Source: Daphnia pulex
Lineage: Eukaryota; Arthropoda; Branchiopoda; Diplostraca; Daphniidae
Assembly: GCF_021134715.1 (NCBI RefSeq)
Contig: NC_060027.1
Coordinates: forward strand, 1,860,001 to 1,924,000
Direction of reading: 5' to 3'
DNA length: 64,000 nt
Below the pieces are notes generated by a model, which saw only the letters and a list, made by a program, of their open reading frames with translations, was not told the origin of the DNA and did no database searches. This document shows, one piece after another, positions 6,013 to 56,252 of the stretch (its first letter is position 1; every line of letters begins with the position of its first letter). A program made the translations under genes and the position numbers.

Positions 6013-6734
6013 ATGAAGTTCCTACCCATTTTCGTCCTGGTTGCTGTCTGCTTCGCCGTTGTTGTGGTAAGGAAATAACTTTGTAGTTAGAGAAATTAGT
6101 CGAATATCAAAATCGGTTCAGAATACGCTAATGCATATAAACTGTAAGTAAAATATACATATTCATTTTGACGGAAATATAGGAGGCCAAGCCTGAACAA
6201 ACAATACAACAATCATTACTGTCTAACGGTTCCGAGAGAAAAGGGACAGAAAAAACCGAGAAACCTAAAACAGAAAAACCAAAGACAGAAAAAACCGAGA
6301 AGCCAAAAACCGAGAAACCAAAGACAGAAAAGACCGAAAAACCAAAGACAGAAAAACCAAAGACAGAAAAAACCGAAAAACCTAAGACAGAAAAACCAAA
6401 AACAGAAAAGACCGAAAAACCTAAGACAGAGAAACCAAAGACAGAAAAGACCGAAAAACCCAAGACAGAGAAACCCAAGACAGAAAAAACCGAAAAACCT
6501 AAGACAGAAAAACCAAAGACAGAAAAGACCGAAAAACCCAAGACAGAGAAACCAAAGACAGAAAAAACCGAGAAACCGAAGACAACGAAGAAAACTACAC
6601 CCAAGACGACAATCACCACCACAAAAACCACCACTACAACTGCGATGCCAATAACTATCACTGATTCCCCAATCACTGATGCCCCAATCACTGACGCACC
6701 AGTCACTGATGCTCCAATCACTGGCGCACCATAG
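6013..6734 (+). CDS. secreted Lys-Thr-Glu-Lys-Pro repeat protein
   Basis: Two exons are visible: 6013-6066, then an intron (gtaagg...atag), then 6183-6734. The product is about 201 residues. Exon 1 is nearly all signal peptide (MKFLPIFVLVAVCFAVVV). Exon 2 has a short linker, then about 110 residues built from PKTEK and PKTEKTEK units, then a Thr-rich stretch and a tail of near-identical ITDAP/VTDAP units. The body is a highly charged, low-complexity, probably disordered secreted polymer; the Thr-rich tail could be O-glycosylated. The function is unknown; silk, mucus, adhesive or cuticle-associated roles are only guesses. The large open frame on the opposite strand (6128-6721) is a by-product of the repeat. 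Slippage-prone DNA makes copy number likely to vary. Confidence 0.75.
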
Positions 6735-14779: not shown

Positions 14780-17700
14780 TTAGAGATGCGCTTCTTCCAA
14801 GTTGGCGGAAGAGCTGACTGGTTTCAACGCGATGCCCTGGACGGAACAAAGCTCAAAGTAGAGACCTCCCAATTTGATTAGTTCTTCGTGCGTTCCTTGT
14901 TCTGATATCGTTCCATGGTTAATGACGATAATGTTGTCCGCGTTCTGAATCGTACTAAGTCGATGGGCGATTGTTATACATGTTCGGCCTTCCCTTGCGG
15001 CATCCAAGGCCATCTGGACGACATGTTCACTCTCTGAATCCAGCGCTGAGGTGGCTTCGTCCAGCAACAGGATTTTAGGATTCCTAATTAACGCTCTTGC
15101 AATAGCTACGCGTTGTTTTTGGCCACCAGAAAGTTGCGTTCCTCGCTCTCCGACCATGGTCTCGTAGCCATTTGGTAACGACTGGATAAACACATGGATG
15201 TTGGCTTTCCTGGCCGCTTCGATAATCTCATCCATGGGGACGACTCGGCTGTTGTCGCCATAGGCGATGTTTTGAGCGATGGTCAAATTGAAGAGAATCG
15301 GCTCCTGGGATACGATACCCATCTGGGAACGGAGTGAAGAAATGTTGACGGGATTGATGTCCTGGCCGTCCAGTTGCACTTGACCGCTATCCGGATCGTA
15401 AAAGCGTTCCAGTAGTTGAATGCAGGTTGATTTTCCGCATCCGCTGTGTCCGACAAGAGCGACAGTCTGGCCAGCTCGGACGGCCAACGACAATCCTTGA
15501 AGAACTTCAGCGTCTTTACGCGTGGGATAACGGAAACGAACTTGTTCAAAGTTGACATTTCCGTCAACGTTCTCCAGGACGAGGCCGTTGTTGGATGAGG
15601 CGTCGATTTGTGGCACACGTCTCAGCAAAGCAAAGATCCGGTTGGCCGCCACTTTGGCTTTGTTGTAGTTTGGAGCGAACGCCACTGCCTGGCCAATCAT
15701 TTGCGTACCGAAGAGAAGCGACTCGCTGACTTTGAAGACGCTGGTGAAATCGAGACATTCGTTAACGACAAGCCATCCACCGTAGTACATAGTGACAGCG
15801 TAGGCGAACATCGGAATAGAGCTGGCGAATCCGAAAATGAAACCACGAATCCAGGATTTTTTCAGGGCTTCTCTGTGCGGTCCTCGCAGAGACTCCATGT
15901 AGATGGTGTGGAATTGCCTTTCTTTACCAAGACTGGCTACTGTCCGGATATTGCTGATGGCTTCCATGGCGACTTTGGCTGATTTCTGCAATGCTTCACG
16001 CTCCAGTGCGGACTGTCCCATGATAATTTTGGCTTGGAAATAAGTTGACACGAGGAGAAGTGGGACGAAACAAAGAGCTACCAATCCCAGTTTCCACTGG
16101 AAATAAAGAGCCAGAACGGTTGAAGCGACCATGGTGGTCACTGCCTGGAAAAGGACGCCAATACGGGATCCTGTGGCACCCTGGACGCTGGCAGCATCGC
16201 CAGACAACCGGGCGCAAAGTGCTCCAACGCTGTTCGTTTTACGATCAAACCAGCCAATTTCCTGTTTCAAAATGGCCTGGAATGTCAATCCGCGAAGTCT
16301 TGATGTCAAAGATTCTCCGGCTATGCTGAATGAGAAAGACTGGGCGAAAGCGGAGAATCCGACGACAATGCCCAGGATCAAGAACATGAGTGCATAGAAA
16401 TTTCCTTGGGCTCTCTTTTCTGCCTGTTCCTCAGCCGATCCTCCAGGTGTCAAGACTCCAAGAACTTCGCTGAAGAGGATGGCAAAGACGGGTGTGCTGA
16501 GACCGACGATAGCTGATCCGATGACTCCCACGACGATGTAGTGCCATTCTTTCCTGTTCATTCTCATAATATCCATTAAACTGACATCGATGTCTTCTGA
16601 CTGGGCAGACACTGCGGAGCTGGCCACAGACAAACGAGCACTTCGTACGGAATTGTGCCTTCCGAGCGGATGACTTCCGGCCAGACTTACTGCATCCATC
16701 ATCTCATCCTTTTCATCTGGAATCCAGGATTTAGCTTTTTCGATCTTTTCTTCTTCGTCCTCATAATCGGAATCGTCATCGATTGAACTTTTGCTGTCCG
16801 ACTCTCCACCCTGTTGTGCAATAACCAGTTGATAGTAAATTCCGTTTAGGGCCATTAGTTTATCGTGAGTTCCGTCTTCCTGTAATACAGCAACAGAATT
16901 TGTTAGATTATTTAGATTGAAAAGGAAGTCAATCATTAGATCTTTTACCTGGACAATGCCATCTTTCATGACTATGATACGATCGGCGTTGCGAATGGTT
17001 GTCAGCCTGTGGGCGACAATGATGGTGGTACGTCCTTGTCTAGCCTTGTCTAAAGCCTTCTGCACGACCGCTTCACTCTGTGTGTCTAACGCGGATGTGG
17101 CTTCATCCAGTAACAGAATTTTGGGTTGCCGAACAAGGGCCCGGGCGATGGCAATACGCTGTTTCTGACCGCCACTCAATTGTCCTCCTCGTTCTCCTAC
17201 AAGGGTGTCGTACTTGCGCGGAAGTCGCTGGATAAAGTCGTGAGCGTTGGCTTCTTTGGCCGCACGTTCCATCTCTTCCTTGGAGACGCCATCTCGACCG
17301 TAGCAAATATTTTCGCCGATGGATGTGCCAAAAAGGACAGGCTCTTGTCCGACCATACCCATTTGGTCTCTCAGCCAACCCAAGTTGAGATTTCTCAATT
17401 CATTTCCGTCGATGGTGACAGAACCTTCGAGCGGATCGTAGAAGCGCTGGAGTAACTGGATGCAAGTGGATTTACCACAGCCGGAAGTGCCGACCAAGGC
17501 GACGGTTTGTCCAGGTGTCACGTCAAAGCTGATACCCTGAAGAATCTTGACATCCGGACGTGATGGATAGTTGAAAAAGACGTCACGGAAAGATATTTTG
17601 CCATCAACTCCGTCGGGGACTAATCCTTCGTTGGATGAGCTATCGATGGGTGGAATTCGATCTATAATGGCGAAAATAGTAGCGGCAGCTCCTCTGGCGA

Positions 17701-19498
17701 CTGAAAAGGCTTCCATGTAAGGAGCTGCTTGGCCAATTTGCATAGCGCCAATCAAGACGCTGAAGAAGACGATCAGGAGATCGGAAGAGGAATACGAATT
17801 TCCATCGCAAGCGGCCAGGATGAGGGTAATCCCGTACCAGAAGGCAAGCGAGTAACTGGCGTAGATAATCCCCCAGACGAGACCAGCCCCGATACCCGTT
17901 GCCATACCGCGTTTGATTCCGGCCTTTTTAGCATACGCCAAATCATCTTGAAATCGATCGATTTCTTTTCTTTGGCCACCAAAAGCCATGACGGTTCGGA
18001 TGGAACTGAATACTTCTTCGGCTATACCACCGGCTTTGGCGTAAGCTTTCAGTTCATTTTCCGTCAAAGATGCTTGAACTTTGGCCAAAACTCCCATAGA
18101 AACGGCTAGAACCGGTGTTGAAACTAACATGACTAGAGTCAATTCCCTAAGGTAAAAAAAATTCTGATTAGATTTTGTGTAACCTTTAAACTGATATGTT
18201 AACGTTATTTGTTATTTTTAGTTTTTTTACCATCCGTGTATAAAGGCGTTGATGATAGATGCAATGAAACATGTCATTGAGAAGATAAACATGCCAATCT
18301 TCTCTCCAACACCGTCCTGGATTTTATTTAAATCTCTGATAATTGAGATAAGAAATTGGAGTAAGAAGTCATCGTGGAAAAAAACAATTGAATAGCATCT
18401 CTCTTACTCTGTGATGCGGCTAGCAAAATCGTTGGATGATTTAGTGTCATACCAGCCGACATCCTGTCGCAGGACGGCTTGTAAAAACTTACTTCTAATC
18501 CGGTAGACCTTGATACGGTAGTAAAGAAATAAAAATGGAAATGAATTTCGTGCATCAGGAGACTGTGACTTTGCACATTCACTAATCAACAAGGTCATTT
18601 ATCCATACATAATATACAGTGCATGTTTAAGGTGTTTATCGTCTGGCTGGTCCGCCAGATGACGAAAACCTTAAACAATTGCCACAGACTGTAAACTGGA
18701 TTTCCATAGATAGCGTTATCTAAAACTTGGTATAAGTTATGTCAAGTCACGCTTGTTGTTTGCATAATTACCTGATTTTCAGCCGTAAAATTAAGCGCCG
18801 TCACGAAAATGAAACCGAGCAGTAAAAGGACGGCGCCAATAATGGCAACGTAAATACCAAATTTTGTGAATTCGTCTTGAATGGCTTGACCCTGCGGACT
18901 TGATTTTCACAGAAGAAAAATATGAATTTAAAATACAGAAAAACCAAATTCTAATGCGACTTACGAGTTGGCGTATTCACTTGGATCAGTGAGGTTGCAA
19001 GTTGGACCACTAAAGGAAAAAAGAACCCATCATTTTCAATTTGATTTAAACTTCAATGAAATAAAAAGTTTAAACTTACAGGGGATAAGGATATGTATAA
19101 TTTGGATCGCTAGAAATGTTGCAATTGATTTCATCGATTGTTTCCTGATCCATACCTCCACCGACGAACGCGTTGGTTATGTCACCAAAGAGAATCAACA
19201 TGAGCGGGAAGCAGACGCCCGTACCTACGGCACCCAAAGTGCCAAAGCACAACAGCACAAAGTCTGTAGGGGAAGCGTATCGGAACAGGTCGAAGAATGG
19301 CACGGGGGGAAATTCAGGCGGCGGTGGTTTTTCTTTATCCTTCTTTTTCTTCTTTTTCTTGCCATTGCCATCGTCGGAGATGCTCGGTATCGAGCTGCTG
19401 GACGTGTCCTCTTCTTTCTTTTTGAGCTCATCATCGTCCTGACTGAAAGCTTCGTTGATTTGACCTTTGACTTCCTCGCGATCCAAATTTGGCGCCAT
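14780..19498 (-). CDS. ABCB full transporter (P-glycoprotein / multidrug resistance type)
   Basis: ATP-driven plasma-membrane exporter of hydrophobic compounds by family. Order: N-terminal linker with acidic and Lys-rich runs, TMD1, NBD1, acidic linker, TMD2, NBD2; about 1,330 residues, normal for the family. NBD1 has [17 protein letters not shown] and [15 protein letters not shown]2 has [17 protein letters not shown] and the same Walker B, so both sites look catalytic. Start ATG 19496-19498 ([12 protein letters not shown]); stop TAA 14780-14782. The first coding exons are at about 19077-19498, 18775-18895, 18411-18513 and 18225-18332; nearly everything else is one 3.3-kb exon interrupted by a 69-base intron at 16880-16948. 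That intron is a multiple of three and has no in-frame stop, so conceptual translation reads through it. An acceptor (gacag) just before the ATG suggests a 5' UTR intron. Confidence 0.93.
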
Positions 19499-45600: not shown

Positions 45601-47198
45601 TCGTCCGACGTCAGCCAAACCAATTTCCGCAAACACTTTTTTAAAAAAAGTTAGTTCTTCTCTTTTTACCCATTCTCTAAGCAAAGAACGGTGGAGAGAG
45701 AGTGTTGCGTACGATGGCCACAATATATTAAGGAAAAGACAGAGTGTGTGCCAGACATTTCCCAAGGGACTATAATCAAAGATGACGCAATGACGCTTAA
45801 AAAAAAACTGAACGGCGAAGAAAACTGTATAATAACCGAGCATGGGTGGGGGAAAAAGACAAAAAATTACCGACACAAAACAATCAAACTGAGCAAATGG
45901 TCGTTACATTGTTTTTCTTTCAACGGAACTATTCGGAACTATTATATTACGCGACGCCGTGAAACCATTTTTTGATTATAATTCGTCGCTAAGATTTTTC
46001 TTCTTCTACTTCTGGGGTTCGGTGTGTGGATTCTCCCAGGTTCGACCGGTTCTGCATCTAGACGTGTGAGAGAAAATCTGTCGAGTGATGAAAAACCCCG
46101 AGCCGTGAATTCCCCCCCAACCATTTTCCCGTCGTTGTATGATGAGGTTTCCCGTCTCATATGATTTAATTTGATGTCTATTTGATGGCCCGACCGCGTA
46201 AAACGGTTACTGGCTGCTATATATCTTCCAGAACGAGAGAATTGACATTTTCGAATCAATGTCATCTCTCACAAAAGAGCCGGAACCGAGGTGTGTGCGT
46301 GACCGTGACTGTCCAGCGATTTCGATTTTCTTTTTTAGGGGAAAAAAAAACAAAATAAATACAAGCAAAGGGGAAATGTAAATAGAGACAAAGATCAGTT
46401 CAAAACATTCTATTGCCCCAAAGGTTACGTCTGATGGGCTAGCGATAATATATATCAGTTCGTCCGTGACGTCAAATGGGTTTTGCTGTTCGCTCTGCTG
46501 CATTTTCTGTTTGTTTTGGTTATCTTACGGGCGGACAGAGGGGGAATTTCATTCAACTGGAAACTGTAAACAGCCGATAATAATAATGCAAATACAATTG
46601 AACGGGCTTTTTTTTATAGTGCACTTGGATGGGAAGAGGACACGAGGTGCATTACGAACCAATATGCAACCAGCGCTGGAGTTAAATTATACAGTCCGTG
46701 AGATATTTTTACTCCCTCCGAAAAATCAGCCTCCTGGATGTGACGACGAATACATAAAAGGGATAGTGTTTGTCTAGCGCTGTGTGAATTTATTGCCGAT
46801 TGAAATTACTCGTCCCCCCTCACCTTCTCGAGTACAATTTGAAATCACCTGGCGAACGAAAATTCTTGGAACTGTAATAAATTAACGACGCTATTACGTA
46901 ATTTGCCTTCCCCATATTTATGTCGACGGTCGTTCCCACTGGCAAGCAAAAGTAAAATTTTGATGTTTCTTTAACTAACTGTTGTACTATCACAGTTTTT
47001 GACAGTCTCGTTTCATGGGCTTAGCTGTTTGAGTTATCAGTGGATTGCATCCTACATTTGATGGCAATAAGTTTTATCAACAACTGCTTGAATTCGCAAG
47101 ATAACATTTTTGTTTGTCTAGTCGAACAAGGAAAAAACGAGTTGGTTAGTTGTTGACAATCTTCGTTTCTTAGCGGACAATAAATTCGTCTGCACAGA
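42611..47198. other. upstream region of the PH-actin and kinase-ankyrin genes
   Basis: Probable leader exons and introns of the PH-actin gene. A candidate first exon at 44688-44708 (minus) reads MSTTSMQ and ends at a donor (gttggt) in phase with the acceptor at 42650. A second candidate at about 44270-44395 (MKKKGQQNSKLSCCC..., Cys-rich) did not join in phase. The rest is poly-A/T-rich with dinucleotide and trinucleotide runs; no other gene recognised. Confidence 0.4.
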
Positions 47199-50100
47199 AT
47201 GGAAGGACAAAATAAGAATTCGTCTTGTTTGGAAAACGTTAAATCTAGCCAGTGTGATGTAATAAGACATGGGAGCAGCAGGGGAATGTTTAAAGATAAA
47301 GCTGTCGCTACAAGGGAACTTTTACTAGACAGTTGTGACGCGGATGTTTTTCAAAATGAAGAGCATTGGAAACATTTGATCAATTTGCGCGACGACAATT
47401 TAGTTCAATACCACCAGTGTAGCATCAAAGGAGAAGCCAGGTGATGGTTTTATCAGTTATTCAATATGATACCTGTGTTTTATACTAAATTAGCTAAAGG
47501 CCAATTTTTTAAATCTAATTGTTTATGGTACTAGACTCCTTGTCATGGACTTGTGTGAGGGATCGATGCTGGACTATTGCCGAAAAAATTTACACGATAA
47601 TGTGACACTATTTGTTAAAGGCATTGACATTATCTGGCAAATAACCTGTGGCATGGATTACCTCAATCGTCATAAAATCCACCATGGAAACCTAATGCTG
47701 GAAAATGTGCTGTTCTGGAAAAGAAATTCAAGTTCTAAAAGAATTGTCGTAAAACTAGCGGGCTACGGATACAAGCTATTTCAAAATCAGGTAGATCTCA
47801 GAATCAAAGACATAGCTTAATGTAATAGACACTTATTCATTTACAAGAATAATATCAAGGACGATCTCTACCAACTCGGTTGTTTGTACTATTCTGCTGC
47901 TACCAAGGACGAAGCCAAACCAAATGAATTGATTCCTTTGGAGATTTTGACCGAAATTGAAATGAACCACAGATCTCTCGCCTTAGATTTGATACACCTT
48001 CTTATTAAAGGCGAAGATGGATTGAAACTTGAAATCGCCACTCTCCTGCGACACCCATTGTTTATCCGTTCCACATTGTTTATCCGTTCCAGCGAGGATG
48101 GTAAAGCGAGATTGATCAAGGACTTGACGGATGGGGAGCTGTCGCACGTATGGAACAGCAAGCAAAAGTTGCAAGAATGGAAAATGTCTTTGATAGAGGA
48201 AACAGAGCTACACGACGAAGATTTCCACGACTTGACCGACATAGTAAATATTGATAAAGATTCGTCAATTTGAGATGCTGTTTTGATTCAAATGCCTTGT
48301 GATTTCATCAGCTCGTTTCAGAAAAAACGGACACCGGCCAAATAGTGGCAGAAGCTTTGAGAACGACTCCAAAATCATTCGCGAAATATATTTGGTACCT
48401 GGCCACTGACTTGTCTTTTTCAGAGGAAACTAACAAAGTAAAAAGTTTCGCTGTATTAGGCTATTCTATACTACATAATTCAGCAGTTTTTAATATCTAA
48501 AATCCCTTGTGTTTATAGGCTCACTCCATTGAGATTCACGAATTATTAGGGAAGGGTAATTACGGGAAAGTTTTCAAATGTAATTACACCGATGGAGACG
48601 GAAAACGATATTTGGCTGCATGCAAAAAGTGCAATACAAAGGGGGAAGGCAATGATATTTTTGATCGAGAAATCCAAACTCTTCGCCAATTGAATCACCT
48701 CTTCGTCATTAAGTACTTGGACGTGATCGAAAAATCTTCCAAAAAGTATTTTAAATTTTAATTATTACGTGTCGTAATCTATCTATAGCGAATTTGAAAT
48801 TATTGACGAACCAACAGGTTTATCGTGATGGAGTTGTGTGAGGGATCTCTAAAGGATTACTTCGACGGAAAGCTGGAGGGAATCCCCAAAGACTCTTTAG
48901 ATGACAAAATCCTTGTAAGTCAAATAACTCTCGGCGTGGCCTACATCCATGACAAAGGGATCATTCACAAAGATTTGAAACTCGAAAATATTCTACTAAA
49001 GCGCCAATCGCTCCGCCTAGTTTTAGCCAAAATTGCTGATTTTGGATTCGCTAAGGAACTGAAACCTGGCAAGGCCGAATTCAGTGAAACTTTGCACGGC
49101 GGAACAGAAAGTTATATGGCACCTGAACTTCTCACAGCTACTAAGGGCGCCTACCCAGCGTCTTTCGCTAGCGATGTTTATGCATTGGGCATAACAATTG
49201 TGCGAATAATCAAGAAAGGGGATCACCCTTTCGGCTGGTCCAAGCTTTTGCGGACGGATTCTATGGTCAAAGGACTAGTTCCTCCAGAGCTTCTAGGATT
49301 CAGCTGGGACCTGATTGATTTGTATCTCAAGTTAACGGAAAAAGAACCTGAAAAACGTCCTGAGATGCGACTCGTATTGCGCCATCCATATTTTGTCTTG
49401 ACGAATGACAGGACGAAAAGGTACTTTGTCGATAAGCTTTGCAACGATTTCGATTTACTTTCAAAAGACGATCGAACGAAGCAGCTGAAAAAAATTTTCA
49501 ACCAGCACAATTTCCAAGAATGGTATAGTACTACTCTTTCTGGTTACCCGGATACTGACGATGACATCGAAGAAATGTCAAAAAATCTATCACTGTTAAG
49601 AAAAGTAAGTATAAACAAGTGGAAAATTGTAAAAGAACTAGTAGTTAAAAAAAGTCATTAATAATTATTTGTTATAGTATGACCCCGACATTCAAGCGAA
49701 GAAATACGCAGAAAAAATCAAGGAAGCTATCTCCTCCGATTACGATGATGACATTGAAAGTCAAATCAACCAGGTTTCTCACAAGATTGATCTCGAAAAT
49801 GTACACAAAACAATAATAATTTGAATTTCACATATTTTAGATGAGTACAAATCGGAATCTTCCTCGTTATCGTTTGTGCAAGTTGGTTCATCATGCGCCT
49901 AATCTTATTTTACCCTATTTCTGGTACCATTTGTTTGATTTAATTAACAACTTAAAACTATCCCGGACATCAATCGCCAAGGAACAAAAGAGCATACAAC
50001 AAAAACAGACAGCGACTGTCCGAACAAGACGTCAATCGAGTAGGACGAAACCATTCACGGAAAATACGGTATGCATGTTAATGATCAAATTTTTCCTATC

Positions 50101-52202
50101 CTTAAATATCAACCCTATTCATGCGTATAATCTAGATGATTTCTGAAATGGAATGGAGTAGCTTGTGCTTCGAAGAAAACGAACTCATCGATGAACTATG
50201 GAACATTAAGTACTCGGATCAGATCGAGAACTGTTCAGAAATGCCCAACGAAATTATTGGCATAGTTGCAAAATGCAACGTTACAGCAAAGGTATGGGCA
50301 ATGTTATTGAATAGATTCGGAAGAACACACGCCGGTTTTCTGCTCCACGAGGTAGTTCAAAGCAACGCTTACAATGGCCCTGAATTAACTCGACACATTT
50401 TGCAACGATACAAAATTACTGATGATGGTTTGCTGTCTTTGGCGACTTCCAATGAAGGAAACGTTGCAGCTGGTATAACACGGGTGCTTTTAGAATATGG
50501 AAGAGACCCGAACGCTCCCACTTCAACTGGATTGACTCCTATTCACTACGCAGCCAGAAATGAATCTAATTCAGGACCAGAAATAATGAAGCTTCTTCTC
50601 GAACGAGGAGGCAATCCAAACGTCCGTTCAACTCATGACAGTTCCACGCCCGTTCACTGGGCAGCAGCTAACCAAGGGGAATACGCAGTTAAGATTTTGA
50701 AGCACTTACTTGGCTCTGGAGGCGATTATGATGCGGTTGCAGAACATAATTTAAAACCAATTCATTTAGCGACGATGAACAGTAGCAAATCCGCACCGGA
50801 ATTATTAGATTTGCTTCTTAAAAATGGAGGCATCGACGACATCTATGGAGAAACAGGAAGGTCATTAGTTCACTTAGCTATTTCCAATGACGGAGACTAT
50901 GTACCAGCAATTCTAGAAAAATTATTTGAAAACGGAGCAAAACCCAATGTTGGTGATGATGGAAAACGAACGCCACTCCACTATTTAGTTGCCAACAGTA
51001 CTTCCAAACAGGAAACTGCAATTGCGAAGATTCTGCTAAGTAATGGCGGCAACCCGAATGCCGTTGACAAGTGGGGAAAAACGCCGGTTCACTACGCAGC
51101 TGCAAACCTAAAAGAAAATGACCATGAAACATTAAATTTTTTATTAACCAATGGCGGAAGTGTTAAGATCAAAGACAAAAACGGATATACTCCTATTCAT
51201 TGTGCGCTGCTGAATACGGGGATTCACGGAAGCAAAATTAGGGAACTAGTGGGTGTCACCAATGAAAATATAAACGCTGATCTTGACAAACGCGGAAACA
51301 CGCTTCTTCATCACATTGTAAGTACCAAAACAACCCAAACTGATATTCATGTTCAACTTTTACTGGATTACGGAGGGAATCCTAACATTCAAAACAAACT
51401 TGGACACTCACCTGTTCATTTGGCCGTGATTAACCTATCTAGCGACAGTACAACCGTTTTGCAACTGTTACTTCTTAAAGGGGGAAATCCTAATCTTCTC
51501 GACAAAGAACTCCGATGTTCGCCTGTTCACTACGTGGCCACCAGTCTTAGGGATATAGCAACCGAAGAAATGAAAATCCTTCTAAACAACGGAGGAGATC
51601 CAAATGTAATTAATAAAGACAGACTTACTCCATTACATCTGGCAGCCAAGAATGAAGGATGTCACGGACCTTATCTGACGAGAATTCTTCTCGAACATGG
51701 AGGGAATCCTCACGTCGTTGACGCATTCAATCGAACACCTCTAGAATTGGCCATCAGAAATTCCAATGACAAATTAAGATTAGAAATTATTTCACAATTG
51801 TTGAAAAACGGTGGAAATCCTAACGCTGGTAACAGAGAAGGTTCGACACCAGTTCATTTTGCCGTTTGCGACAAAAGAAACAATTCGTTGGAAGTGTTGA
51901 AGCTTTTGTTACATTATGGTGGAAATATTAACAAATGTGATAACAAAGGAAGAACGCCATTCGCCCTGGCTACACAGTTCGGAAGTAAAAAATATTGCCT
52001 GCTCAAAGTGAAAGCCCACCTTCAAAAAATCTCTCGCCAAATGAGGAACCCGGAAAAAAGTTGGTTGAATGGAATTAAAGAAAACATGTGTTTTAAAATT
52101 ATTAACTTACTCGAGCAAGCAAGCAAGCAAGCTCCAGTTAAACTGTTTTTAGCGATAGTACTGTTTTCTTCCATGTTTATACTTTTGTATACTATATTTT
52201 GA
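47199..52202 (+). CDS. pseudokinase-kinase-ankyrin repeat protein with C-terminal membrane anchor
   Basis: Nine exons in phase: 47199-47440, 47535-47790, 47848-48243, 48312-48437, 48519-48745, 48818-49604, 49678-49773, 49841-50068, 50136-52202; 1,474 residues. Residues ~1-300: degenerate kinase fold with no Gly loop, VATREL where the VAIK Lys should be, HHGNLMLEN for HRD and LAGYG for DFG. Residues ~345-620: intact kinase: GKGNYGKVF, AACKK, IIHKDLKLENIL, ADFGFA, YMAPEL, DVYALG, ending KRPEMRLVLRHPYF. The nearest recognisable style is IRE1/RNase L-type, but no KEN nuclease motif follows either kinase. After a basic linker, about 14 ankyrin repeats of 36-37 residues (TPIHYAA...LLLERGGNPN) sit in one 2-kb exon, followed by a C-terminal hydrophobic helix (FLAIVLFSSMFILLYTIF). 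Likely a tail-anchored signalling protein; ligand and substrates unknown. Confidence 0.85.
48058..48090 (+). repeat. 18-base in-frame duplication in the pseudokinase
   Basis: TTGTTTATCCGTTCC recurs after 18 bases, giving LFIRSTLFIRSS directly after the conserved RHPLF of the kinase C-lobe. Probably a recent slippage event. Confidence 0.85.
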
Positions 52203-54206: not shown

Positions 54207-54744
54207 TTAATAGCTTGGAGAGTAGCTGCCGTAAGATTTGGGTTTCTCGTATTTGTCGTAACCGTAAGATGGGGGGCTGTAGTCGTAGCTTGGTTTCTTA
54301 CCATAGCCGTAAGGAGAAGGTTGGTATTCGTAGCTTGGTTTCTTGTCGTATCCGTAGGAAGGTGGGCTGTAATCGTAACTCGGTTTCTTATCGTAGCCAT
54401 AAGAAGAAGGCTGATACTCGTAGCTTGGTTTCTTGTCGTAGCCGTAAGGAGCAGAGTGATAACCATAGCTAGGTTTGTTATCGTAACCCTTGTCGTATCC
54501 TTTTGGGCCCTTATAGTCCATATCGTACTTGACCGAGTACGAGGATCCGTATGGTGAATATCCTTTGCTTCCACCGTAGGAATAAGGATCGCTGGCCATG
54601 GAGACGGCCACCAAAACGACGAGAGCAAACAAGGAACTCTGCAAATGTTTCAAGGATATGTCACTCATAACTTACAGGTATGTAGTCAAACATAAAATAC
54701 TCAAGCATTTTAGTAGATAGAAACTTACAGTGAAATTGGCCATT
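54207..54744 (-). CDS. secreted Tyr/Pro/Lys-rich repeat protein, copy A
   Basis: Exon 1 is only 15 bases (54730-54744, MANFT), then exon 2 at 54207-54638; 148 residues. Signal peptide MANFTSSLFALVVLVAVSMA. The mature part repeats KKPSYEYQPSPYGYD and KKPSYDYSPPSYGYD units and ends KPKSYGSYSPSY. Extended Tyr/Pro repeats suggest a cuticle, shell or adhesive structural protein that may be cross-linked through Tyr; this is inference. Tandem paralogue of 55771-56252: same 5-codon first exon, same intron position, same KYEKPKSYGSYS ending. Confidence 0.85.
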
Positions 54745-55770: not shown

Positions 55771-56252
55771 TCAATAAGCTGAGTAGCTTCCGTAAGATTT
55801 GGGTTTCTCATACTTGTTGTCGTATCCTTTAGACTGCACGTAAGATGGTTGAGGGTTGTATGCCTTGGCTTTCATTTGGTACGAGGGTTGAGGTGGATTG
55901 TACGCTTTCGTGTTGTAAGTTGGGGCTTGACGGTACTCTTTAGGTTTCATGTCGTATGATGGAGTCTCGTAATGTTTTCTCTCGTAAGAAGTTTCGTAAG
56001 CCTTGGGCTTCATGTTGTATGACGGAGACTCGTAATGTTTCTTCTCGGGAGCATAAGAAGATCCGTAAGGTGCAGGCTGCTCGTAGGGTTTCCCATTGTA
56101 TCCATTGGCCATTGCAACGGCAGCGAAAGAAACGAGAATCACAGCGATCTGGAGAATATTTGGGGAAACAAGTAACAACAAACTAAATTAAAAATCCTAG
56201 CCTGGCTTAATCAATGATAGAATTAAAGTTAACTTACAGTGAATTTGGCCAT
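55771..56252 (-). CDS. secreted Tyr/Pro/Lys-rich repeat protein, copy B
   Basis: Exon 1 56238-56252 (MAKFT), exon 2 55771-56148; 130 residues. The signal peptide continues IAVILVSFAAVAMA. The mature protein repeats KHYESPSYNMKPKAYE-like units and AYNPQPSY units and ends NKYEKPKSYGSYSAY. Paralogue of copy A in tandem on the same strand. Repeat units differ between the two while the N-terminal hydrophobic part, first exon and last 12 residues are conserved, so repeats have turned over after duplication. Confidence 0.85.

Follow-up and report, generated by a model that had tools for sequence, protein, structure and literature searches.

The window, a 64,000-nucleotide stretch of the Daphnia pulex genome, contains on its forward strand, at positions 47199-52202, nine exons that join into a single frame of 1,474 residues with no internal stops (Table 1). 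All introns are bounded by GT and AG, are 57-94 bases long and have the phases 2, 0, 0, 0, 2, 0, 0, 0 in order; the GC content is 39-43% in the exons compared to 20-31% in the introns. The reading frame of exon 1 is open only from position 47184. A Pfam scan of the predicted protein yields two kinase stretches, denoted K1 and K2, and a long ankyrin array.

Table 1. Features of the pseudokinase-kinase-ankyrin gene, in window coordinates
Feature	Position	Strand	Content
Exon 1	47199..47440	+	Start codon; N-lobe of K1 (pseudokinase)
Exon 2	47535..47790	+	K1, MDLC to AGYG; HGN replaces HRD; preceded by IRE1-type phase-2 intron
Exon 3	47848..48243	+	K1 C-lobe and beginning of K1 tail
Exon 4	48312..48437	+	End of K1 tail; motif TPKSFAKYIW
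Exon 5	48519..48745	+	K2 N-lobe; LGKGNYG, AACKK
Exon 6	48818..49604	+	K2 MELC, HKD, DFG, APE to HPYF; first part of K2 tail; preceded by IRE1-type phase-2 intron
Exon 7	49678..49773	+	K2 tail; INQ at end
Exon 8	49841..50068	+	Part of K2 tail, paralogue of exon 4; APNLILPYFW motif; ATG at start
Exon 9	50136..52202	+	Helical cap (~100 residues); array of 14 ankyrin repeats; hydrophobic segment at the C-terminus; stop codon
Hydrophobic C-terminus, possible tail anchor	52131..52199	+	About residues 1452-1474; absent from paralogues
AATAAA	52210..52215	+	Begins 8 bases past exon-9 stop

Paralogues and selection

Intact copies with all nine exons and all eight intron phases are found at two other loci, L048 and L049, and a third, L050, is a decayed copy with three frameshifts and one stop. 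The layout of the subfamily, K1-tail-K2-tail-ankyrin in nine exons with the phases given above, is shared by the window gene, L048 and L049; in addition, L051 is a kinase-only fragment and L060 a solo pseudokinase relative. Judging by these sequences, the six loci, including the window, constitute a small subfamily beside a larger IRE1-like set. This much of the proposed new family stands, but the subfamily is accompanied by a far larger set of IRE1-like kinases.

The window gene is about half to three quarters identical to its paralogues. Throughout the regions compared, which fall within residues 25-1405, dN/dS lies at 0.09-0.39, with values of 0.09-0.19 for K2, 0.17-0.28 for K1 and 0.30-0.32 for the ankyrins. 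These values point to purifying selection across all compared regions, strongest in K2, intermediate in K1 and weaker in the ankyrins; with dN/dS below 1 throughout, positive selection is not apparent at the present depth. When the paralogue proteins were aligned back onto the window, the eight introns were recovered with all three paralogues, apart from one boundary that was off by 12 bases (L048) and one extra intron (L050), although this reverse alignment is not independent because the paralogue proteins were originally found with the window protein. A tenth exon break, which the aligner placed within the open 768-residue ankyrin frame of L049, was treated as an artefact of extra repeats. 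Given that the order, exons and splice phases recur in the paralogues and that dN/dS stays below 0.4, the region looks like a real gene rather than a set of chance reading frames, and the single frame of nine phase-matched exons in the original prediction is confirmed by the gene model and by the exon structure of the paralogues.

Kinase domains and their relationship to IRE1

In K1, HGN replaces HRD and AGYG replaces DFG, and the window copy also lacks the beta-3 Lys (VATR); in the alignment of three copies, read by eye, the Gly loop, the activation segment and APE are missing as well. K2 contains LGKGNYG, AACKK, HKDLK, DFG and APE; the catalytic residues are kept in K2 and lost in K1 in all three copies, as had been claimed for a first kinase fold without Gly loop, catalytic Asp and DFG and a second with HKD instead of HRD and the other motifs kept. 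A predicted structure of exon 6 (pLDDT 37.4) was discarded.

In a phmmer comparison of K2 with its tail against the PDB, IRE1 is the best match at 102.8 bits, and the next family reaches 85.8 bits; K1 alone has no clear best family (PLK4 28.0 bits, IRE1 26.6 bits). A phase-2 intron is located at the identical codon, seven residues before the Cys of ELC, in K1, K2 and the IRE1 of this genome. This intron at the MELC start, a feature defined in the present analysis, occurs in K1 and K2 of the window and in 31 of the 33 other models, including IRE1 (L052), but the models partly overlap and six extra outgroup kinases, chosen as intron-free, are outside the count, so the control is biased. Of the remaining two models, L025 belongs to another kinase family, and in L053 a phase-2 intron occupies the matching place and the motif is altered. 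In the tree of 47 kinase sequences, with seven other kinases (91) as the root, K2 is the earliest branch (75), followed by K1 together with L060. The members of the large IRE1-like set group as a clade (97), which is united with IRE1 and L053 (84). Neither K1 nor K2 falls inside the group of IRE1 and the large set (84), so the case for descent from IRE1 is made by the intron and the phmmer comparison, which together uphold the kinship of K2 with IRE1 that was part of the earlier claims.

IRE1 is regarded as an ancient stress sensor of low copy number that acts through RNA cleavage. Its activation segment (FS...GTE) is similar to that of K2. IRE1 has a luminal domain and a KEN domain, neither of which was detected in the window protein, where Pfam matches above the cut-offs comprise kinase and ankyrin only and no hydrophobic stretch precedes residue 1451 that could be a membrane segment before the kinases; unlike IRE1, this protein has an extra pseudokinase in front and ankyrins behind.

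The genome search yielded 140 matches, of which 116 reach at least 80 bits as IRE1-like kinases. In the loci read, ankyrin or WD40-like frames lie behind the kinase, some loci having neither, and at four loci of this large set a pseudokinase is located ahead of the kinase, the layouts being kinase-ankyrin, kinase-WD40-like and pseudokinase-kinase-WD40-like. IRE1 is the best PDB match for the two members tested. KEN was found above the cut-off at only two loci in the genome, C1 (IRE1) and C4, with no match at the loci of the large set, the members of which, judging from these layouts, appear to have exchanged the RNA-cutting part for other modules. The window gene shares with this set the IRE1-type intron, the lack of a KEN match and, for many of the loci read, repeats behind the kinase; its K2, however, is ~29-40% identical to the set members, has HKD and a longer tail with PxLxxxYxW, and branches outside the clade that they form.

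Kinase tails, ankyrin array and C-terminus

The ankyrin array consists of 14 units that start at residues 919, 956, 992, 1028, 1064, 1101, 1137, 1174, 1210, 1247, 1283, 1319, 1356 and 1392, a count that derives from 16 pattern matches less those at 1047 and 1079, which are off-register. The spacing of 36 or 37 residues agrees with the approximately 14 long repeats originally predicted. The low-confidence predicted structure of exon 9 (pLDDT 57.4) was used only for its helical and ankyrin-like character.

The tail motif of K1 matches that of K2 (PxLxxxYxW) at a level that none of 1000 shuffles attained at 12 or 16 columns and that 8 of 1000 attained at 20 columns. Given that both kinases end in the same tail motif, a unit of kinase plus tail was duplicated and joined to ankyrins. 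The position of the K2 motif in exon 8 bears on whether the locus could consist of two adjoining genes, a pseudokinase-kinase gene that ends in intron 7 and an ankyrin gene that starts at the ATG opening exon 8. This ATG is found in the window, L048 and L049, the donors of intron 7 are weak (GTTTCT, GTTAGG, GTTGCA), and frame continuity across introns 2-4 and 6-8 is weak evidence because these introns are in phase 0. However, exon 8 contains the K2 counterpart of the K1 tail motif; intron 7 is 67, 70 and 79 bases long in the three copies, similar to the other introns of the gene; neither AATAAA nor ATTAAA occurs within 48005-51130, the AATAAA being located just past the exon-9 stop; and the kinase-then-ankyrin order is also seen in the other kinase-ankyrin loci read (L054-L059), which were chosen for ankyrin matches adjoining kinase matches. 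Altogether, a division into two genes appears improbable, and a single gene is the preferred reading.

About equally improbable is a diverged nuclease of the IRE1/RNase L type, in which the tails would be eroded KEN domains with RNA binding or cleavage retained. Apart from the affinity of K2 to IRE1, it is favored by RAPKLLVPYFWSHL, which by eye is similar to RFPKLLMHSWYSM of the IRE1 of the same genome, and by weakly positive hand-picked segments, for which a KEN score was reached by 396, 53 and 44 of 3000 shuffles (exon 8) and by 187, 60 and 15 of 3000 (exon 4) at 12, 16 and 20 columns, respectively; because these segments were picked by eye, we did not rely on them. The Pfam KEN model has no match at E<=10 on three K2 tails and one K1 tail, in a search whose filters remove most matches above about 0.1, yet gives 150.8 and 69.5 bits on two real KEN domains. 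The hhalign probabilities for the tails against KEN are 3.1% and 0.6%, whole-tail scores were reached by 66, 325 and 328 of 1000 shuffles for the K2 tail and by 164, 71 and 45 of 1000 for the K1 tail, and the RNK.HH stretch of KEN has no counterpart in the tails by eye. The hidden KEN fold suspected after each kinase in the original prediction is thus unsupported by Pfam, hhalign and whole-tail shuffles, the best hand-picked value of 15 in 3000 being a weak signal.

A membrane-anchored sensor, with the C-terminal helix inserted in the ER, mitochondria or plasma membrane, is unlikely, albeit slightly less so than the two preceding alternatives. The last 23-24 residues are hydrophobic, and 19-residue segments with a Kyte-Doolittle mean above 1.6 occur only in residues 1451-1474, with a maximum of 2.53. 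Against an anchor, the segment is absent in all three paralogues (L048, L049 and L050), where stop codons fall just past the ankyrins, and the DNA beyond these stops also gives hydrophobic runs in other frames (up to 2.35, stops scored as Asp), which suggests that the extension of the window protein may be a late read-through. A hydrophobic C-terminus is a feature of the window protein, as predicted, but membrane anchoring is not supported as a trait of the subfamily.

Comparison with known systems and possible function

RNase L combines ankyrins with an IRE1-type (pseudo)kinase, and in RIPK4/ANKK1 and DAPK a kinase is followed by ankyrins. Compared to RNase L, the order in the window protein is reversed, the second kinase appears active and no KEN can be demonstrated; with regard to 2-5A binding, OAS1_C had no match in the genome at E<=0.1, in a search without a positive control. 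The FERM and SH2 domains characteristic of JAK are absent from the Pfam scan at E<=1. With no FERM or SH2, and with ankyrins behind the kinases and no KEN, the layout differs from those of both JAK and RNase L. RIPK4/ANKK1 and DAPK have a single kinase whereas the window protein has two; RIPK4/ANKK1 are not among the best 60 of the 2624 PDB matches of K2, DAPK2 scores 84 bits against 102.8 for IRE1, and the DAPK features ROC, COR and death domain are missing from the Pfam scan at E<=1. The tandem kinase resistance proteins of wheat (Yr15, Pm24, Pm57, Pm36/WTK7-TM) are reported to have two kinase domains, a putative kinase-pseudokinase pair, and Pm36 also to have a transmembrane domain; these are plant proteins, and the likeness is one of layout, not of membership.

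We consider it an even call that the window gene encodes a cytosolic ankyrin-sensor receptor kinase of the IRE1 lineage that signals by phosphorylation, with K1 as an allosteric dimer partner or brake. Under this scenario, the ankyrin solenoid would be the sensor, changing state upon binding of a ligand, most likely a protein, and would pair two molecules in the manner of IRE1 and RNase L. K2 would then trans-autophosphorylate at FSETLHGGTE, its IRE1-like activation segment, and relay the signal by phosphorylating a partner, and K1, catalytically unable, would act in cis on K2. The retention of the catalytic residues in K2 and their loss in K1 in all three copies favor this reading, and the predicted sensor with a gated kinase is plausible. 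A scaffold is rather unlikely, though the strongest of the alternatives. In that case K2 would be active at all times, the ankyrins would keep a substrate or complex within its reach and K1 would offer no more than a docking surface. Ankyrin arrays commonly bind partners and K1 is under constraint without catalysis, but a scaffold does not account for the large set of related kinases in which the C-terminal modules are exchanged. The size, clustering and varied C-terminal modules of that set suggest that its members recognize targets that vary, probably as part of immune or stress responses, and we infer an immune role for the window protein.

Among the literature matches listed, with preprints and most of the subscription literature outside the scope, there is no description of an IRE1-like kinase-ankyrin family in Daphnia, and a literature search for IRE1-ankyrin proteins of invertebrates gave no match. 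The passages seen of PMC3710099, PMC9548574, PMC10544471, PMC4551569 and PMC9894429 do not name the family of the window gene; in those of PMC4551569, a three-ankyrin 'Unknown 2', with no established link to the window gene, is among the genes differentially expressed in D. magna exposed to Pasteuria.

More tentatively than the receptor kinase itself, we propose that in this animal the IRE1 kinase may have been turned into an NLR-like repertoire of intracellular receptors, with more than 100 KEN-less copies joined to exchangeable modules (ankyrins, WD40-like propellers), sometimes as pseudokinase-kinase pairs. The window gene, with 14 ankyrin repeats and a possible membrane anchor that is new, would belong to a deep branch, and the repertoire would be the animal equivalent of the tandem-kinase immune receptors of plants. 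If true, the kinase-dimer switch of IRE1 would have been re-used as a receptor platform, apparently nuclease-free, with new sensor modules, and the more than 100 IRE1-like kinase loci would supply concrete, testable candidates for receptors of immunity or stress in an animal that probably serves as an ecological model.

Gene structure and domain order

The rebuilt gene model, with GT-AG at every intron, intron phases 2,0,0,0,2,0,0,0 and a stop-free frame of 1,474 residues, bears out the nine phase-matched exons of the original prediction. GC content is 39-43% in the exons and 20-31% in the introns; neither AATAAA nor ATTAAA occurs within 48005-51130 of the window, and an AATAAA lies 8 bases past the stop codon. 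Given that introns 6-8 are all in phase 0, and that the donor of intron 7 is weak and an ATG opens exon 8 in all three intact copies (the window gene and its paralogues L048 and L049), the single transcript remains a prediction.

In the same three copies, the first kinase fold (K1) is a pseudokinase, with HGN or YGN for HRD and AGYG or AGSYG for DFG, as had been anticipated from the missing catalytic Asp and DFG; in the alignment of these copies, read by eye, K1 is devoid of the activation segment and APE, and its beta-3 Lys is lost in the window copy and kept in L048 and L049. The second kinase (K2) retains the catalytic motifs in all three, with HKD replacing HRD, again as predicted. Comparison of K2 and its tail with all PDB sequences placed 13 distinct IRE1 sequences on top (97.7-102.8 bits), followed by CHK2 as the next family (85.8 bits), among the best 60 of 2624 matches. 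The suggested affinity with IRE1 is supported for K2. K1, for which PLK4 (28.0 bits) outscored the IRE1 entry 2rio (26.6 bits), is too divergent to be placed in a family by PDB search.

The 14 ankyrin repeats are spaced by 36 or 37 residues, in agreement with the expected array of long repeats. An AlphaFold model of exon 9 alone is weak (mean pLDDT 57.4) and consists of a helical cap and helix pairs, with ankyrins and designed ankyrins as the best PDB matches. The final 23-24 residues of the window protein are hydrophobic, consistent with the proposed C-terminal anchor helix, but L048, L049 and the decayed paralogue L050 all end just past the ankyrins without such a segment, so that the anchor is either limited to the window copy or a late read-through.

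Kinase tails and the KEN domain

The tails of ~95 residues behind K1 and ~150 residues behind K2 both terminate in the motif (T/A)P(K/R)L...Y(I/F)W, encoded by exon 4 for K1 and by exon 8 for K2. Column shuffling of the whole-tail alignments equalled the match between them in none of 1000 trials at 12 or 16 columns, and in 8 of 1000 at 20 columns. Accordingly, a kinase-plus-tail unit appears to have been duplicated to give the N-terminal half of the protein, with exon 8 as part of the kinase. Behind L060, a solo pseudokinase related to K1 that shares the tail motif, a same-strand frame resembles a membrane or chemoreceptor protein.

The tails were compared with KEN, the RNA-cutting nuclease domain of IRE1 and RNase L, which had been suspected to lie hidden after the kinases. 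Tail segments picked by eye do score better against KEN (at best, reached by 15 of 3000 shuffles), but the observed scores of whole tails were reached by 66, 325 and 328 of 1000 shuffles for K2 and by 164, 71 and 45 of 1000 for K1, hhalign of the tail against KEN gave 3.1% and 0.6%, and Pfam KEN had no match at E<=10 in any of four tails (three from K2, one from K1), while the two real KEN domains of the genome scored 150.8 and 69.5 bits. A hidden KEN is thus not demonstrated by these comparisons and seems unlikely. KEN exceeds the cut-off at two genome loci only, on contigs C1 (IRE1) and C4, with a further locus on C6 below it. The C4 locus (L053; C4:1980000-1988000, minus strand) encodes another KEN protein, in which the kinase is degenerate (HGN) and a luminal part was not seen; it seems to be a soluble relative of IRE1/RNase L.

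Paralogues and the larger IRE1-like set

In separate genome searches with three parts of the window protein (kinase, pseudokinase and ankyrins), K1, K2 and the ankyrins were seen to recur, in the same order, at three more places (see table). In spliced alignments, which start only at residue 19 to 31 so that the start codon is outside their range, L048 and L049 share the identical nine-exon layout, with all eight intron phases kept and zero frameshifts (an extra break inside the open ankyrin frame of L049 is taken for an alignment artefact); L050 has three frameshifts, one stop and an insert of ~2.6 kb before most of the ankyrins. Identity to the window protein in L048 and L049, respectively, is 187/270 and 200/270 residues for K2, 111/214 and 125/212 for K1, and 245/498 and 270/512 for the ankyrins. 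Nei-Gojobori dN/dS values for the three pairs, which are rough given nearly saturated synonymous sites (dS 0.7-3.4), are 0.09-0.19 for K2, 0.17-0.28 for K1, 0.20-0.39 and 0.21-0.27 for the first and second tails, 0.13-0.29 for the exon 9 cap and 0.30-0.32 for the ankyrins.

Coordinates of the features (window: contig C11, bases 1860001-1924000; genome: 133.19 Mb in 13 contigs)
Feature	Location	Strand	Basis or remark
Exon 4 of the window gene	window, start 48312	+	rebuilt model
Intact paralogue (L048 or L049)	C11:247313-252071		found by all three part searches
Intact paralogue (L048 or L049)	C11:1759628-1754535		found by all three part searches
Decayed copy of the whole gene (L050)	C7:3696113-3689138, within C7:3688000-3697900		part searches and spliced alignment
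Solo pseudokinase related to K1 (L060)	near C7:12037391 (C7:12036000-12042000)		tail motif PELFAEFIW
P-glycoprotein-like ABC transporter	window 14780-18211	-	by eye; open frame of 1,143 codons
Small cuticle-like frame	window 54207-54671	-	by eye; rich in Tyr, Pro, Lys repeats (such as KPSYEYQP)
Second small cuticle-like frame	window 55771-56187	-	by eye; Tyr/Pro/Lys repeats
Frame built of KTEKPKTEKTEKP repeats	window 6183-6734	+	open on both strands

The neighbours of K2 led to a far larger set of kinases in the same genome. Two different kinase-segment queries matched at least 131 and at least 140 places at E<=1e-10, both lower bounds given that scoring covered 150 of the 289 and 150 of the 328 candidates. 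In the second search, 116 of the 140 places, some of them partial or stop-containing, reached at least 80 bits, K2 of the window being the lowest (80.9 bits); L025, a kinase of another family, scored 51.9 bits. Two members compared with the PDB matched IRE1 best (146.4 vs 88.5 and 116.7 vs 74.5 bits). The set occupies places on C3, C10, C11 and C12. Six loci on C3, C10 and C12 (L054-L059), chosen for ankyrin matches beside kinase matches, all carry an ankyrin frame behind the kinase on the same strand, confirmed by Pfam in both loci scanned. Loci chosen by kinase score alone (L061-L067) have mixed layouts: WD40-like frames by eye in L062, L066 and L067 (Pfam confirms WD40 in one of seven frames scanned, that of L067, at 34.6 bits), an ankyrin frame behind the kinase in L065, and no evident repeats in L063 or in L061, which has three kinases. 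In L015/L062, L019/L066, L024 and L028, an active-looking IRE1-like kinase is immediately preceded by a pseudokinase in which HGN or HGQ replaces HRD, with WD40-like frames behind the pair in L062 and L066. Two IRE1-like kinase copies with equal scores, 13 kb apart (C10:352000-352488 and C10:365215-365703), are probably a recent duplication.

Origin and possible role

A phase-2 intron lies exactly seven residues ahead of the Cys in M(E/D)LC in K1 and K2, and in 31 of 33 other kinase models, among them IRE1 of the same genome (43 models were built and 10 that re-read loci already represented were dropped, with some overlap remaining), a count made without an unbiased control, six further outgroup kinases having been chosen as intron-free. 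The two exceptions are L025 and L053, the latter with a phase-2 junction in the corresponding position and an altered motif. A tree built from 47 kinase domains (LG+G4, 1000 ultrafast bootstraps) separates seven other kinases from all IRE1-like ones (support 91); rooted on these seven, K2 branches first (75), followed by K1 with L060 (100), and the large set forms a clade (97) joined to IRE1 and L053 (84). Under this branching, the large set is the sister of IRE1, and the subfamily of the window gene branches off more deeply. As outgroups are few and branches long, the tree is compatible with the presence or absence of K1/K2 descent from IRE1; the shared intron favours such descent.

Among the matches listed, open papers, mostly on Daphnia, contained no account of a family of this kind. 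The nearest, a survey of HEPN domains (PMC3710099), mentions fusions of KEN with kinase and ankyrins, as well as a different, Swt1-type HEPN expansion with 46 copies in Daphnia. In the likeliest mechanism, the ankyrins of the window protein would act as the sensor, dimerisation would be followed by trans-phosphorylation by K2 with K1 as its allosteric partner, and the output would be phosphorylation. Family size, clustering and module exchange suggest an immune role. Judging from sequence, the window gene encodes an IRE1-like kinase in which the nuclease has apparently gone and other modules have been substituted.
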